A DNA stretch of 33,070 nt from a virus (IMGVR_UViG_3300006733_000031:1-33070), one strand, 5' to 3'. Shown: positions 2,999-15,318, numbered from the stretch's first letter. Made by a program: numbers and translations. Notes: a model not told the origin generated them from the letters alone.

Positions 2999-3397
2999 TC
3001 AAATTTCTTTTCTAAATTCTAAAAATTCTATTAATTCTTTTCGGTCGAGGATTTCTTTTTCTCCAGTGATTAAATTTTCTACAAATGTTCTGTCATATGG
3101 GGGATTGCCTTTGACTATATATGCTTCAAATTTATGCTTAGCGATCTTGTTAATATATTTAAAAACCTTTGCTAAAACTGTTAACGCTTCTAACTGTGAC
3201 GCCGGCGTTTTTTCTCTTTCGTGTTTGGATTCTATTATCCTTAAAATCTTTTTACTGCGTTTGTATTGGAGCATGTCAATGTTGATAACCGTCATTTGTT
3301 TTGAACATTCTGTGTGTGCAAATTCGTTAAGGTCTGATCCGAAATATTTTAATTTCCTTTCTTTGTCTAATTGTTTTTTTGATTTAAAGTTAAGCAT
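2999..3397 (-). CDS. Putative PD-(D/E)XK-type nuclease, 132 aa
   Basis: A 132-aa protein with the spacing of a minimal PD-(D/E)XK nuclease: D41 in INIDMLQ, E56-S-K58 in IIESKHE, then SQLEAL with a Gln one helix later. A conserved-looking C-terminal part contains GNPPYD. Such small phage enzymes include Holliday-junction-resolvase and nickase-like types, and here it follows the methyltransferase. The ATG at 3397 is preferred over an upstream TTG. It overlaps the end of the methyltransferase gene by 8 nt. A restriction-like pair with the methyltransferase is possible but unproven. Confidence 0.55.
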   Translation of the reverse strand: MLNFKSKKQLDKERKLKYFGSDLNEFAHTECSKQMTVINIDMLQYKRSKKILRIIESKHEREKTPASQLEALTVLAKVFKYINKIAKHKFEAYIVKGNPPYDRTFVENLITGEKEILDRKELIEFLEFRKEI

Positions 3398-4451
3398 GGA
3401 ATCTTGATTTAGAAATATTAAAAGATTGCTCGTCAATCTCAACGCCGATAGCTTTGCGTTTAAGTTGATGAGCTATATGTGGAAAAGTTCCAGATCCCAT
3501 AAACGGATCAAGGGCTGTGTCACCTGGGCTTGAGAACGCTTCAATTAATTTTGATGCTCCGTCTTCTCCTTGTTGCCAATCGTGTCCGTCTTTTTCCATT
3601 TTATCATCACCTACGTAATCCTGAAAAACTTCTGGAATCTTTTTGAATGGAGGTTTCTGGAAGACAAGCACTGGTTTCCATCTACACATAACCCCTCTGG
3701 GATGAATGATTTGTGTAGATCCTGTATGATATAAACAGAACGTCCAATAATAATCTAAATGTTCAGACAATCTTTGGTAAACTTCCGGAAGATGTAATTG
3801 TCCTGAATAACATACGAGAAATCCTGAAGGTTTTAAAACGTTTGCTGCTAATTTCGCGAGATCGCTCCATAGCGGAAGATACTCTTGTGGATATGGAGGA
3901 TCTGTTAAGATTAGATCAATTGATTCTGGTTCAAAATGAATATTTCTAAAGTCATCATTATAAAATTTCGCAGGAACGCCGGCGTTTTTCCCTTGCTCGG
4001 CGGACTCATTCCTGCGCTTTTCTTTCTGGAATAATTTTATTTCGCTTCTTAATCGTTTTGCTGACCAACCATTGTCTTCTGCTAAAACAAGCATTTCTTC
4101 TTGTTCGTTGGCTTCCAAGCCGGCAACTTCTTGATGATGCGCAAAGCTTAGATTGTTACGTCGACTTAACATTTGAACATGTTCGCAGACAAATTTGATT
4201 TGCCTTAATGTGTCGTAAGTGTATTTAGTTTCTTCTAACGCTTGTGAATATATTTCACCATATTTTTGTTCGCCAAAAGCTATCCAGTCACCCACCCACC
4301 ATTGAACAGACTTAGTAGTTGATTGAAGTAATTCACCTAATTCGCACCAGTCTCCATAACTTATATTTTGATCTATTTCTAATCCGGATTCGTTAAATTT
4401 ACACTTTGAAGAAACGAGTTTACCTTGCTCGTATTGGATTAGTTGTGTCAT
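3390..4451 (-). CDS. DNA amino-methyltransferase (N6-adenine or N4-cytosine)
   Basis: A 353-aa protein. Residues about 160-353 form a SAM-dependent DNA amino-methyltransferase. The catalytic motif TDPPY (D184-Y187) comes before the SAM-binding motif DPFMGSGT (315-322), followed by AIGVEID. That order is the beta class. Residues 1-150 are a helical N-terminal extension with no methyltransferase motif and a helix-rich WWVGDWIAFGEQ start, perhaps for target recognition or DNA binding. The likely role is modifying phage DNA against host restriction, or epigenetic control. The ATG at 4451 is preferred over a GTG at 4490 because CTAAC stands 9 nt upstream and the longer form would extend to the -10 region. 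It is the first gene of the leftward unit. Confidence 0.88.
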   Translation of the reverse strand: MTQLIQYEQGKLVSSKCKFNESGLEIDQNISYGDWCELGELLQSTTKSVQWWVGDWIAFGEQKYGEIYSQALEETKYTYDTLRQIKFVCEHVQMLSRRNNLSFAHHQEVAGLEANEQEEMLVLAEDNGWSAKRLRSEIKLFQKEKRRNESAEQGKNAGVPAKFYNDDFRNIHFEPESIDLILTDPPYPQEYLPLWSDLAKLAANVLKPSGFLVCYSGQLHLPEVYQRLSEHLDYYWTFCLYHTGSTQIIHPRGVMCRWKPVLVFQKPPFKKIPEVFQDYVGDDKMEKDGHDWQQGEDGASKLIEAFSSPGDTALDPFMGSGTFPHIAHQLKRKAIGVEIDEQSFNISKSRFHA

Positions 4452-4480
4452 ACTGTATTTGTTAGTTGTTAAACGCTGAC

Positions 4481-4519
4481 ATTGTAGCACTCCTTCCGCA
4501 GAAATGCAAGGAGTGTTAC
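4481..4519 (-). promoter_or_regulatory. Leftward promoter overlapped by a 12-bp dyad (putative operator)
   Basis: On the minus strand, -35 TTGCAT (4504-4509) and -10 TACAAT (4481-4486) have an ideal 17-nt spacer, about 30 nt before the methyltransferase ATG. A 12-bp inverted repeat covers the same bases: the plus-strand left arm GTAGCACTCCTT (4484-4495) and right arm AAGGAGTGTTAC (4508-4519), with one wobble and a 12-nt centre. Such a dyad across -35 to -10 is what a dimeric repressor would use. On the plus strand it is followed by TTTTT, so it could also act as a terminator for rightward transcripts, but no rightward gene precedes it. Confidence 0.6.
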
Positions 4520-12079: not shown

Positions 12080-12739
12080 ATGGACAAGGAATTATTTGAA
12101 CAAGAAACAAAAGCACGTAGAAAAAAAGATGTGCATGAATTGGGTACACAGGTTTTAGCAAAAATGTTAAAGCAAGATGTACGAATGTTTGATACGCATT
12201 ATATTCGTGATAGAGTGGTTCAAATCACAGAGCAGACAGTAAAGAAGCTTAAATTCAAGAATGAAGAAATAGAACGTGCGAGAAGGGCGTTTATGGATGT
12301 TCTAATTGATGGTATGCAAGAAAACATGTTTGATGTCAACGATGAGATAAAAGCTGCTAAGAAGTTGATAAAATCTAAGGATAAGGAGAAAAGGAGAAAA
12401 GCTGTTGAGAACTTAAGTAGGCTGGAAAGGATCAGGGATCATAAGCCAAAGGAAGCTACTGAGGAGCGTGACGTGGAGTGTGAACCCGTTTGTCAGTTTA
12501 TAGCCAAGCAGCTTTTAAGTAAGGACTGGTTGTTGAAGAATGATGATTATGTGAAAGGAGTGATTGAGTTGGACAACGAGTTATTGATATTGGTAAATGC
12601 TATGCAGTATGTATCAGCGGTGTTTGAGGTTTTATACGATGCGTTGGATCAAAGTTATTTAAGGGCTAACGAGAAGAATTGGGGATGTTCGCGGGAAAAG
12701 ATTCGATTAAGTCAACTTGATAACAGATTGAAAGAATGA
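12080..12739 (+). CDS. Helical hypothetical protein, 219 aa
   Basis: A 219-aa, almost entirely helical and charged protein, with a lysine-rich segment (AAKKLIKSKDKEKRRKAV, about 94-111) and a C-terminal half with DWLLKNDDYVKGVIELDNELL. TTAAC stands 8 nt before its ATG, and the stop overlaps the kinase gene in an ATGA arrangement, so it is coupled to the enzyme cassette. It may be a structural or assembly protein, or a partner of the enzymes that follow. The sequence gives no catalytic motif. Confidence 0.62.
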   Translation: MDKELFEQETKARRKKDVHELGTQVLAKMLKQDVRMFDTHYIRDRVVQITEQTVKKLKFKNEEIERARRAFMDVLIDGMQENMFDVNDEIKAAKKLIKSKDKEKRRKAVENLSRLERIRDHKPKEATEERDVECEPVCQFIAKQLLSKDWLLKNDDYVKGVIELDNELLILVNAMQYVSAVFEVLYDALDQSYLRANEKNWGCSREKIRLSQLDNRLKE

Positions 12740-13095
12740 TTTTGTATATAATCGGTCCGTCAGGTGCAGGGAAGACTACATTAGCCAAAAGGTTTAAAGG
12801 TGCTATTAACTTGGATGGTGACGATGTTAGGAAAATATGGCCAGATTTAAAATATAATCCAGAAGATAGATGTGAAAATAATCTACGTGTAGCACGTTTA
12901 GCTAAGCTCTTAAGCGAGCAGGGGCAAGCTGTAATAGTTTCTACGATTTGTCCGTATAGAGAGCTTAGAAGTGAAATACAGAAAATTTGTAATCCGTTAT
13001 TTATAAGAGTTGATCATAAGGGTGCGAAAAGCAGAAATGATGATGCGGAATTTGAAGAGATTCTTAGTCCGTTGTTATTTAATATTTCAATATGA
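12736..13095 (+). CDS. APS-kinase-like P-loop kinase (short)
   Basis: A 119-aa P-loop kinase. Motifs are Walker A GPSGAGKT (7-14), LDGDDVR (26-32), the NPEDRCENNLRVARLAKLL helix (41-59) and STICPYRELR (69-78). This set and order match adenylylsulfate kinase (CysC), which phosphorylates APS to PAPS, the sulfate donor. Typical CysC is about 180-200 aa. Here the C-terminal part after RVDHK is cut short, so substrate choice is uncertain. It overlaps the genes on both sides by 4 nt. A PAPS-type sulfotransferase three genes downstream supports the assignment. An alternative is a ribosyl-nicotinamide- or nucleoside-type kinase acting with the next gene. Confidence 0.72.
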   Translation: MILYIIGPSGAGKTTLAKRFKGAINLDGDDVRKIWPDLKYNPEDRCENNLRVARLAKLLSEQGQAVIVSTICPYRELRSEIQKICNPLFIRVDHKGAKSRNDDAEFEEILSPLLFNISI

Positions 13096-13436
13096 ATTAT
13101 GTTTATAGTGCGTTCATAGGTCGATTTCAGCCGTTTCATTTAGGACATGCGACTATTATTCGTAAGTTATTAGATGAAGGGAAACGTGTGGCGGTTTTGG
13201 TAAGAGATACGGGAATAGATGCGGATAATCCTTATAATTTTTCTGAGCGGAAAGCGATGATAAAAAGATCTTTCTTGAAAGAGTATCGTGATGACGATAG
13301 ATTAATAATTAGATCGATACCAGATATTTCAGAAGTTGTTTATGGGCGTGAGGTTGGATATGAAATAAGGGAGATAAAATTAGGCAAGGATATAGAAAAT
13401 ATTTCATCAACTAAAATACGCAATGCAAAAAAATAA
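13092..13436 (+). CDS. HxGH nucleotidylyltransferase (NMNAT-like)
   Basis: A 114-aa Rossmann-type nucleotidylyltransferase. The motif IGRFQPFHLGH (9-19, with H16 and H19) is the ATP-binding HxGH signature. NPYNFSERKAMI (46-57) and ISSTKIR (104-110) complete the pattern seen in NadM/NadR-type adenylyltransferases. It joins a nucleoside monophosphate to a phosphorylated substrate with release of pyrophosphate. By family it most resembles NMN adenylyltransferase (NAD synthesis). In this cassette it could instead make a nucleotide-activated sugar, or substitute for ATP sulfurylase, which belongs to the same superfamily. At 114 aa it is short. It is coupled to both neighbours. Confidence 0.75.
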   Translation: MNYVYSAFIGRFQPFHLGHATIIRKLLDEGKRVAVLVRDTGIDADNPYNFSERKAMIKRSFLKEYRDDDRLIIRSIPDISEVVYGREVGYEIREIKLGKDIENISSTKIRNAKK

Positions 13437-14061
13437 ACAAATTATGGTAGCAATACCGAGTTATTCAGGAGATGTTCCGTTAAGGGTTATAAGTCGATTG
13501 AATAATATGATTATGCCAGAAGGATATGATGCTAATTTTGCATATACTGAAAGAGTTCCCATTGATAAGGCTAGACATGGCATAGCGCATATGTGCCTTA
13601 TACATGATAATGATTATTTATTTTTCTGTGATAGCGACCAGATCCCTAGTAGGAACGCTATAGACGAATTCATAAAACTTGACAAGGACATAGTGGGATG
13701 TCCTATACCAAGTAGACGTGGAGAGAAGTTTATAGCTGTATTTGATGAGAATATTGATAGATTGACTGAATGGAAAGGGACTAAGCAGTGTGGAGCGCTT
13801 GGCATGGCGACAACAATGATAAAGAGACATGTTGTTGAAGAGCTTATGAATAAATGGTCTAATCCTTTTGCTTTTGAATGTGAGCAGAATGATAAAGGTG
13901 TTTGGGTGGAATACTCAGAAGATGTTATGTTTTGCAGAAGGGCAAGGGATTTAGGTTTTGAGGTTTGGTGTACGGATAAAGTAAATTCTGAACATATAGG
14001 TGATCCCGTAACATATTGGTATGACGGGGAGTATAAAAATTCATTTAATCATAAGTTATGA
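13423..14061 (+). CDS. GT-A family glycosyltransferase
   Basis: A 212-aa GT-A-type glycosyltransferase-like protein. An N-terminal IMVAIPSYSGDVPLR strand-loop is followed by the DxD metal/nucleotide-sugar site in LFFCDSDQIPS (D70, D72). A later region (ALGMATTMIKRHVVE, then EYSEDVMFCRRARDLGFEVW) is like the acceptor and catalytic segments of family-2-like enzymes. It has no membrane segment, so it is cytoplasmic, and the acceptor may be a protein or a soluble precursor. It overlaps the nucleotidylyltransferase gene by 14 nt and the sulfotransferase gene by 4 nt. The likely job is putting a sugar on a phage or host target that is then sulfated. Confidence 0.78.
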   Translation: MQKNKQIMVAIPSYSGDVPLRVISRLNNMIMPEGYDANFAYTERVPIDKARHGIAHMCLIHDNDYLFFCDSDQIPSRNAIDEFIKLDKDIVGCPIPSRRGEKFIAVFDENIDRLTEWKGTKQCGALGMATTMIKRHVVEELMNKWSNPFAFECEQNDKGVWVEYSEDVMFCRRARDLGFEVWCTDKVNSEHIGDPVTYWYDGEYKNSFNHKL

Positions 14062-14714
14062 AAATACGTAAAGACATAACGTTCCCAGTTATAGTGGGCA
14101 CAGGATGTGCCAGGAGTGGTACAGCATTTTTAGCCAATCTGTTGACACAAGGTGGTATTCCAATGGGGCATGAAACATATTATGGGTGTCCAGGTTTTGG
14201 TGAATGGCGAGATGGGATGGTTGGTGACGTGTCGTGGTTAGCTGGGCCGTTTTTGCCTAAAGAGAAAATAAGAGGAGCTATCACGATACAAATTGTCAGA
14301 CATCCATTGAAGCATATTAGTTCGATGAATCATGTACATACATTTGAAGATCATAATTTTAGGGCTAATATATATACGATATTTAAAGAATTGTATCTGC
14401 CAACTATGAGAAGATATAGGGTTTTAGACAGATATATTTATAATTGGATTAGATGGAATAAGATGATAGAAGATCACGTGGATTTAATTTATAGATTAGA
14501 AGATCTTGTGAAAAACCCTAAAGAAATCTTTGAAGATTTGGGATGGGACATTGGGAAAAAGAAGTTGAACACCAAGAAGGTTAATACTTATAGTAATGTC
14601 AAACAATATGAATGGAAAGATTTTAGAGATTGTTTACTTTATAATGAATTGTTAAACGCAGCAGGACATTATAAATATTTAACCGAACAAGAGATTAAAG
14701 ATTTGAAGAAATAA
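14058..14714 (+). CDS. PAPS-dependent sulfotransferase-like protein
   Basis: A 218-aa protein. The 5'-phosphosulfate-binding loop GTGCARSGTAFLANLL (14-29) matches the G-x-x-RSGT-x-(F/L)L pattern of PAPS sulfotransferases. The 3'-phosphate motif IVRHPLKHISSM (79-90) has the expected Arg and Ser. YRLEDLVKNPKEIFEDLGW (165-183) matches the conserved late segment. The enzyme should move sulfate from PAPS to a hydroxyl of a glycan or protein. It lacks a signal or membrane anchor, unlike eukaryotic Golgi enzymes. It is the last gene of the coupled cassette and ends just before a promoter-like element. Confidence 0.82.
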   Translation: MKIRKDITFPVIVGTGCARSGTAFLANLLTQGGIPMGHETYYGCPGFGEWRDGMVGDVSWLAGPFLPKEKIRGAITIQIVRHPLKHISSMNHVHTFEDHNFRANIYTIFKELYLPTMRRYRVLDRYIYNWIRWNKMIEDHVDLIYRLEDLVKNPKEIFEDLGWDIGKKKLNTKKVNTYSNVKQYEWKDFRDCLLYNELLNAAGHYKYLTEQEIKDLKK

Positions 14715-14717
14715 TGC

Positions 14718-14747
14718 TTTACTTTTTAGTCATTTTATGCTTATAAT
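14718..14747 (+). promoter_or_regulatory. Sigma70-like promoter before the capsid genes
   Basis: TTTACT (14718-14723), an 18-nt spacer and a perfect TATAAT (14742-14747), lying 3 nt after the sulfotransferase stop. It points at the decoration and capsid genes and would place the start near 14754, just upstream of the attenuator-like hairpins. It could boost capsid expression independently of the long upstream operon, or make a short terminated RNA. Confidence 0.55.
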
Positions 14748-14766: not shown

Positions 14767-14812
14767 AGGTCTCCGTTATGACCTCACAGGTATAATGTGA
14801 GGTTCTTTTTTC
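14767..14812 (+). terminator. Attenuator-like terminator/antiterminator leader
   Basis: A perfect 8-bp hairpin, ACCTCACA (14781-14788) with TGTGAGGT (14796-14803) and a 7-nt loop, is followed by TCTTTTTT. This is a textbook intrinsic terminator. Upstream, AGGTC (14767-14771) can pair with GACCT (14780-14784), sharing ACCT with the terminator's left arm, so the two hairpins exclude each other. The element lies between the promoter at 14718 and the capsid genes. It could regulate read-through, end the cassette transcript, or define a ~60-nt RNA. Confidence 0.7.
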
Positions 14813-14910: not shown

Positions 14911-15318
14911 ATGGCATTTGAACCAAGTAGTAGAGATTGGAGTGTTATGAAGGTTCCAACTAAAGCGTCCGTGACTTATTCAGCAGGGATGTTTATTTAT
15001 AATGATGGTACTGACAATATTCCGACAGCCACTTCTACACAGGTAGGGGCTTTGGGGATTGCTTTAGAGGCAAAAGCTTCAAGCACTACAACTACAGACA
15101 TACACGTACTTGTACCTAATGGTGGTATGTCTACTTTTAAAGCTGATGCGTCAGGGACTCTCACTAAAGCGTTGGTGGGTGATTTCTTTGATTTCGCAGC
15201 AGGAGGTACACGAGTCGCTCAAGGAGCGTCAACTTATGACACTGTTCAATTGGTTAAATTTATTTCTTCTTCAAAGGGAGTGTTTAGATTGAATCCAACT
15301 TATGGTGTTGAAAACTAA
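14911..15318 (+). CDS. Capsid decoration/stabilisation protein candidate
   Basis: A 135-aa beta-rich protein, low in charge and high in Thr, Ser, Gly and Ala, with no Cys. The pattern (SAGMFIYNDGTDNI, VGALGIALEAKAS, IHVLVPNGGMSTFKA) resembles small capsid-cement proteins (DUF2190 or lambda D-like), usually encoded just before the major capsid protein, as here. It would bind the outside of the expanded head. A TTAAC pentamer 10 nt upstream supports the start. The roughly 95-nt 5' leader after the terminator also contains hairpins (AGACG/CGTCT and ATAGT/ACTAT). Confidence 0.65.
   Translation: MAFEPSSRDWSVMKVPTKASVTYSAGMFIYNDGTDNIPTATSTQVGALGIALEAKASSTTTTDIHVLVPNGGMSTFKADASGTLTKALVGDFFDFAAGGTRVAQGASTYDTVQLVKFISSSKGVFRLNPTYGVEN

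Follow-up and report, generated by a model that had tools for sequence, protein, structure and literature searches.

Four overlapping genes in the head operon of a virus raise the question of which chemistry they encode together and on what it acts. They lie in a window of 33,070 nucleotides, which is the whole stretch of DNA that was analysed (IMGVR_UViG_3300006733_000031:1-33070). The genes and signals concerned are:

12080-12739, plus strand: conserved gene for a 219-aa protein, left border of a variable slot
12736-13095, plus strand: P1, ORF of 119 aa
13092-13436, plus strand: P2, ORF of 114 aa
13423-14061, plus strand: P3, ORF of 212 aa, with a possible alternative start at 13444
14058-14714, plus strand: P4, ORF of 218 aa
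14718-14747, plus strand: promoter-like site (10/12 match, consensus only) preceding the decoration and capsid genes
14780-14804, plus strand: terminator-like hairpin (9-bp stem, CTTTTTT tail; consensus match only) closing the operon
14911-15318, plus strand: probably a cement (head-decoration) gene, bordering the slot on the right (Phage_cement_2, 19.9 bits, below cut-off)
15340: gene in the capsid position, downstream of the decoration gene

The ORF calls confirmed the four-gene set described in an earlier note on this DNA, with overlaps in ORF coordinates of 4, 14 and 4 nt for P1/P2, P2/P3 and P3/P4, respectively, and another of 4 nt between P1 and the preceding gene (12080-12739). To place this cassette in the head operon was fair, because a terminase gene (phrog_2) and genes in portal and scaffold positions lie 5' of it, with the genes in decoration and capsid positions on its 3' side. 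The note had also put a capsid promoter after the cassette; a promoter-like site is indeed present at 14718-14747, but it is a consensus match only, from a scan whose total was that expected by chance (14 found, 14.0 expected). Elsewhere in the window, an N6/N4 DNA methylase (65.8 bits) is encoded on the opposite strand (3390-4490, minus strand).

P1 is readily assigned to the APS-kinase family of P-loop kinases, in a short-lid form. It passes the cut-off of Pfam APS_kinase (65 bits, 1e-17; cut-off 21.1) with a match that spans profile positions 4-104 of 152 only, that is, the first two thirds, and it matches APS kinases of the PDB, down to 9e-13. Against the apsK model TIGR00455 it scores 63.6 bits (profile positions 20-118/184), under the equivalog cut-off of 138.7. 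The P-loop GPSGAGKTT and the LDGDDVR, NPEDRCENN and ICPYRELR motifs are retained, and the APS-kinase lid (KGLYKKAR..FTGIDSPYE), which some family members have, is absent from the P1 sequence. The nearest viral relatives (L084-L086) are likewise short, and a scan of viral contigs with P1 alone found no relatives.

P2 is an NMNAT-fold nucleotidyltransferase (NTase) from which most of the acceptor region of NadM-type enzymes is missing. It matches Pfam CTP_transf_like (4.9e-11) and contains the motifs GRFQPFHLGH ... YGREVGY ... ISSTKIR, and its AF2 model (pLDDT 90.6) adopts the NMNAT/PPAT fold with both HxGH and SxTxIR in place (Foldseek, 2qjt at 1e-4; 1ej2, Z 11.0, 2.5 A over 107 residues). NadM is nearest in sequence and fold, with a profile-profile score of 99.9% (hhalign) as opposed to 0.4% for the Sat family (PF01747), while the score against the NadM model TIGR01527 is 44.5 bits, under the equivalog cut-off of 181.2. 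No Sat chain was returned by a PDB profile search with P2 at E<=1, nor was Sat found among the Foldseek/VIA matches listed. Homology to Sat was dropped in view of the hhalign value, and since P2 has no profile relation to ATP sulfurylase, the sulfurylase activity proposed below is derived from context. Alignment of the P2 family with archaeal NadM revealed deletions of 16- and 9-residue blocks, the first of which holds a conserved Trp; a near-invariant YGRxVG stands in place of the lost blocks, and these changes would fit a small-anion acceptor.

P4 is, on sequence evidence, a divergent PAPS-type sulfotransferase. Its score against Sulfotransfer_3 (24.3 bits, 4.2e-5) is slightly under the 27-bit cut-off, and an ortholog scores 18.2 bits, below cut-off, against Pfam sulfotransferase, but a sulfotransferase profile is matched at 95.9% (hhalign, E 6e-9), and both PAPS motifs can be recognised, a 5'-PSB-like GCARSGTAFL (R19SGT) and a 3'-PB-like R81-x7-S89, with equivalents in the related viral contig L009. 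A scan of viral contigs with P4 alone found no relatives, and a two-sequence P4 profile recovered only L009's own contig. The AF2 model of P4 was unusable (pLDDT 31), probably owing to a shallow alignment, and PDB profile searches with P3 and with P4 yielded nothing significant. P3 is probably a GT-A glycosyltransferase. It has a DSD motif and matches phrog_1574 (1.2e-11), a PHROG family with no assigned function, as well as two PHROG glycosyltransferase families, weakly (E 0.002-0.007); no Pfam family scored above cut-off, and relatives of P3 fall slightly under the Glycos_transf_2/Anp1 cut-offs. Thus, of the enzymes named in the earlier note, the APS-kinase-like protein, the HxGH nucleotidylyltransferase and the PAPS-type sulfotransferase were borne out, as was the presence of the first and last of these in one operon, whereas for the GT-A assignment the PHROG matches are weak and no Pfam family passed its cut-off.

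P1 and P2 form a real module. When viral sequences were scanned with the NTase alignment, 212 loci were found and 80 of them kept. An APS-kinase-like partner accompanies the P2 relative in 39 of 43 non-redundant viral-side loci, which comprise viral contigs, the window and three annotated phage records, and in all 28 bacterial family loci; the two domains may be fused in either order, adjacent, or nearby. By comparison, none of 52 plain NadM-like bacterial loci has an adjacent kinase, and two have a kinase-profile match about 4 kb off, the split into 28 and 52 having followed, unblinded, the scan identity ranking and the kinase matches. Some kinase partners keep a complete lid, including that of L093 (189.6 bits, 3-152/152) and those of L087 and L089, in which kinase and NTase are fused. 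In the closest viral relatives, L084-L086, the NTase, a DUF2061-like gene and the kinase are separate and lie beside glycosyltransferase genes, with sulfotransferases present in L085 and L086. In Casjensviridae, the fused kinase-NTase adjoins an NADAR gene, and no sulfotransferase was recognised nearby.

Other genes in these loci were noted as well. A DUF2061-like small membrane protein is encoded in about half of the 43 viral-side loci, and its gene repeatedly adjoins the pair (L084:4101-4307, L085:5322-5537, L095:5319-5534, L099:5333-5533); its role is perhaps sulfate-related. A truncated pyruvate-kinase-like protein (barrel domain) adjoins it in CPR and SAR11 bacteria (L225:6327-7361; also L220, L224 and L227). 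A gene annotated as cysteine dioxygenase lies a few kb upstream of the Casjensviridae fusion and its NADAR neighbour (L002:6142-6585, L002:2770-3447), and long glycosyltransferase-like ORFs occur in L084 (142-2613), apparently with an intein-like (Hint) insertion as judged by eye, and in L106 (1135-3273).

The pair also keeps company with sulfotransferases. Pfam Sulfotransfer_2 or Sulfotransfer_3 (E<=1e-3) was found in 14 of 30 viral records with the NTase but in none of the 20 viral controls (p=1.6e-4), both sets being hand-picked from the loci examined, with some matches far from the NTase; the NTase records are longer in sum (1.43 vs 0.73 Mb), which explains part of the difference only. DUF2061 (Pfam) shows a similar distribution (12/30 vs 0/20). 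Local profiles, followed by a Pfam check, took the place of a sulfotransferase regular expression that was overly strict; as several local-profile matches, those in L089, L091, L105, L112, L117 and L126, had no Pfam support, the Pfam-based counts alone were used for statistics. Bacterial neighbours of the pair include Sulfotransfer_3 proteins (75 and 70.8 bits) and a TauE/SafE transporter (131.9 bits). Of the 28 bacterial genomes that hold the pair, 18 gave no match to Sat or CysD that reached or approached the cut-off, which is suggestive only, because several of these are MAGs or single-cell genomes. In the G012 class, two of eight clear NTase genomes have Sulfotransfer_3, both nearby, numbers too sparse to use.

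A second sulfur context is found in SAR11, which is among the most abundant groups of ocean bacteria. The P2 family occurs in 59 of 118 Pelagibacteraceae genomes, and in 11 of the 20 SAR11 loci examined (L332-L351) its gene is clustered with aprM and aprB (TIGR02060), and with aprA where the contig reaches (TIGR02061, 1000 bits). It lies directly before aprM in eight of the 11 clusters; in the other three, a CADD-family gene intervenes and a kinase is present too. The clusters (11/20 loci) also hold a gene of 116 aa, in many cases with a TauE-like gene as well, and a sub-threshold ATP-sulfurylase Pfam match (17.8 bits; G006:C5:8294-8521, minus strand) apparently overlaps one SAR11 P2-family gene. 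This synteny represents few evolutionary events, and the co-occurrence with Sulfotransfer_3 in SAR11 genomes is modest (33/59 with the NTase vs 17/59 without, p=0.0025, with no correction for phylogeny). P. ubique was reported to be devoid of cysDNC and sat (PMC5069961), and the P2-family gene is a candidate for the missing sulfurylase of SAR11, where an APS:phosphate (ADP sulfurylase) reaction is also possible.

Since APS kinase and APS reductase have APS as their shared metabolite, the simplest prediction for P2 is that it adenylylates sulfate. The case for sulfate activation is stronger than in the earlier note, because relatives of the HxGH protein pair with APS-kinase-like proteins and adjoin genes for sulfotransferases or APS reductase. 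P2 thus appears to be an overlooked type of sulfate-activating enzyme. With moderate confidence, we propose that its family is a third, independent class of ATP sulfurylase, minimal and NadM-derived, which in phages and ultra-small bacteria would serve sulfation together with APS kinase and sulfotransferases, and beside AprBA in SAR11 would provide the missing step of sulfite oxidation. Literature searches, whose coverage was partial, returned no description of the phage set or of a P2-type NTase as a sulfurylase.

The comparison with the nearest relatives bears on the acceptor. Three viral contigs (L009, L010 and L011) have portal and head genes in common with the window, and each has an ortholog of the 219-aa gene (44-45%) just before a sulfotransferase or glycosyltransferase gene, and one of the decoration gene (54-60%) after the slot. 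Between these borders, L009 holds a sulfotransferase gene only (55% identity to P4), and L010 and L011 a glycosyltransferase gene only (51% identity to P3), so the four genes were not inherited as a block, and the slot looks like an exchangeable site for particle modification. The earlier note had made its proposal depend on APS-kinase similarity of the kinase, which P1 shows, and on co-occurrence of the set in related phages, which was half borne out: it was not seen in these nearest relatives, but the kinase, NTase, sulfotransferase and glycosyltransferase do occur together in the unrelated viral contigs L085 and L086, and probably in L087 and L089, whose sulfotransferases are without Pfam support.

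We consider it fairly probable that the cassette encodes a complete sulfation pathway of its own, with the particle as the most likely target. P2, as a NadM-derived sulfate adenylyltransferase, would convert sulfate and ATP to APS and PPi; P1, to judge by its family and despite the missing lid, would convert APS to PAPS; P4, given its motifs and profile match, would transfer the sulfuryl group from PAPS to the acceptor; and P3 might add the sugar that serves as that acceptor or gives rise to it. The position of the slot among head genes, together with relatives that have the sulfotransferase or the glycosyltransferase alone, makes a decoration or capsid protein, or the glycan that it bears, the most likely acceptor. 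Phage particles are, to our knowledge, not usually regarded as sulfated. Counted against the pathway are the lidless P1 below the apsK cut-off, the lack of a profile relation between P2 and ATP sulfurylase, the sub-threshold Pfam score and poor model of P4, the Casjensviridae fusion beside NADAR, the lack of four-gene co-occurrence in the nearest relatives, and in SAR11 the few evolutionary events and modest sulfotransferase co-occurrence.

The same APS/PAPS chemistry might instead be directed at an envelope or capsule glycan of the host, blocking superinfection or altering adsorption. Fused or paired relatives in L085, L086 and L087 adjoin several glycosyltransferase and NAD-epimerase genes, as in surface-polysaccharide clusters, but both in the window and in its nearest relatives the slot lies in the head operon beside decoration and capsid genes, and a host acceptor is possible though on balance unlikely, a likelihood that, like that given next to DNA, overlaps with that of particle sulfation, the chemistry being common to both.

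Sulfation of the phage DNA, on a modified or glycosylated base, is more doubtful still. A role of this sort has been proposed for phage operons that contain glycosyltransferases and sulfotransferases, and PMC10829341 cites Iyer et al. 2013 (NAR 41:7635) for such nucleotide-modification systems of phages. However, the cassette belongs to a late head operon, and among the ORFs scanned no thymidylate-synthase-like protein, base hydroxylase or other base-modification enzyme was found beside it.

No more probable is a different donor, either a 3'-phospho-nucleotide with a non-sulfate group or an ordinary NDP-X, made by the kinase and the NTase. Not every CysC-like kinase is an APS kinase, and that of the Campylobacter methyl-phosphoramidate pathway reportedly makes a non-sulfate 3'-phospho-nucleotide; moreover, P1 has no lid and the acceptor of P2 is only a prediction from context. 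The adjacency of sulfotransferase, TauE/SafE and aprMBA genes nevertheless points to sulfate and APS. That the four are unrelated accessory genes sharing an operon, with no joint pathway, would agree with the single members in the nearest relatives, but is very unlikely given the near-universal pairing of kinase and NTase and the enrichment of sulfotransferases. NAD salvage, with P1 phosphorylating nicotinamide riboside and P2 adenylylating NMN, is the least credible proposal, since the kinship of P2 with NadM and the NADAR neighbour in Casjensviridae are set against the deletion of the NadM blocks around the conserved Trp, an APS-kinase-like P1 and contexts related to sulfur.

If the cassette does carry out sulfation, the phage would produce PAPS for itself and consume it while particles are assembled. 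A small NMNAT-like family would likewise explain APS-kinase/sulfotransferase systems in bacteria with no detected Sat or CysD, and in SAR11 it would give AprBA its missing partner, closing sulfite oxidation without sat.

Several known systems resemble parts of this one. The phage 'kinase' family phrog_10255 (230 aa; Stenotrophomonas DLP6, Bhz60 and Xanthomonas AhaSv) has the same two domains as P1 and P2, but fused, annotated just as kinase or hypothetical, and with no sulfotransferase recognised beside them in those phages. NadM-type NMN adenylyltransferases share with P2 the fold and the active-site motif GRFQPFHxGH ... SxTxIR; P2 differs in the two missing blocks, including the conserved Trp region, and in the near-invariant YGRxVG. 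The aprM-aprB-aprA clusters of SAR11 contain a P2-family gene, in most cases directly before aprM, but unlike the cassette they are mostly without a kinase, and the enzyme would presumably run in reverse there, from APS to ATP and sulfate. Another parallel is PAPS synthetase, in which APS kinase and ATP sulfurylase, fused or separate, serve sulfotransferases, just as the module combines an APS-kinase-family protein with an HxGH-superfamily adenylyltransferase, often fused and with a sulfotransferase nearby. The adenylyltransferase of the module, however, has about 114 aa and derives from NadM/NMNAT rather than Sat, and many members, P1 among them, have a shortened kinase lid. PAPS-dependent sulfation itself is already known, and it is the class of sulfate-activating enzyme that is probably new.
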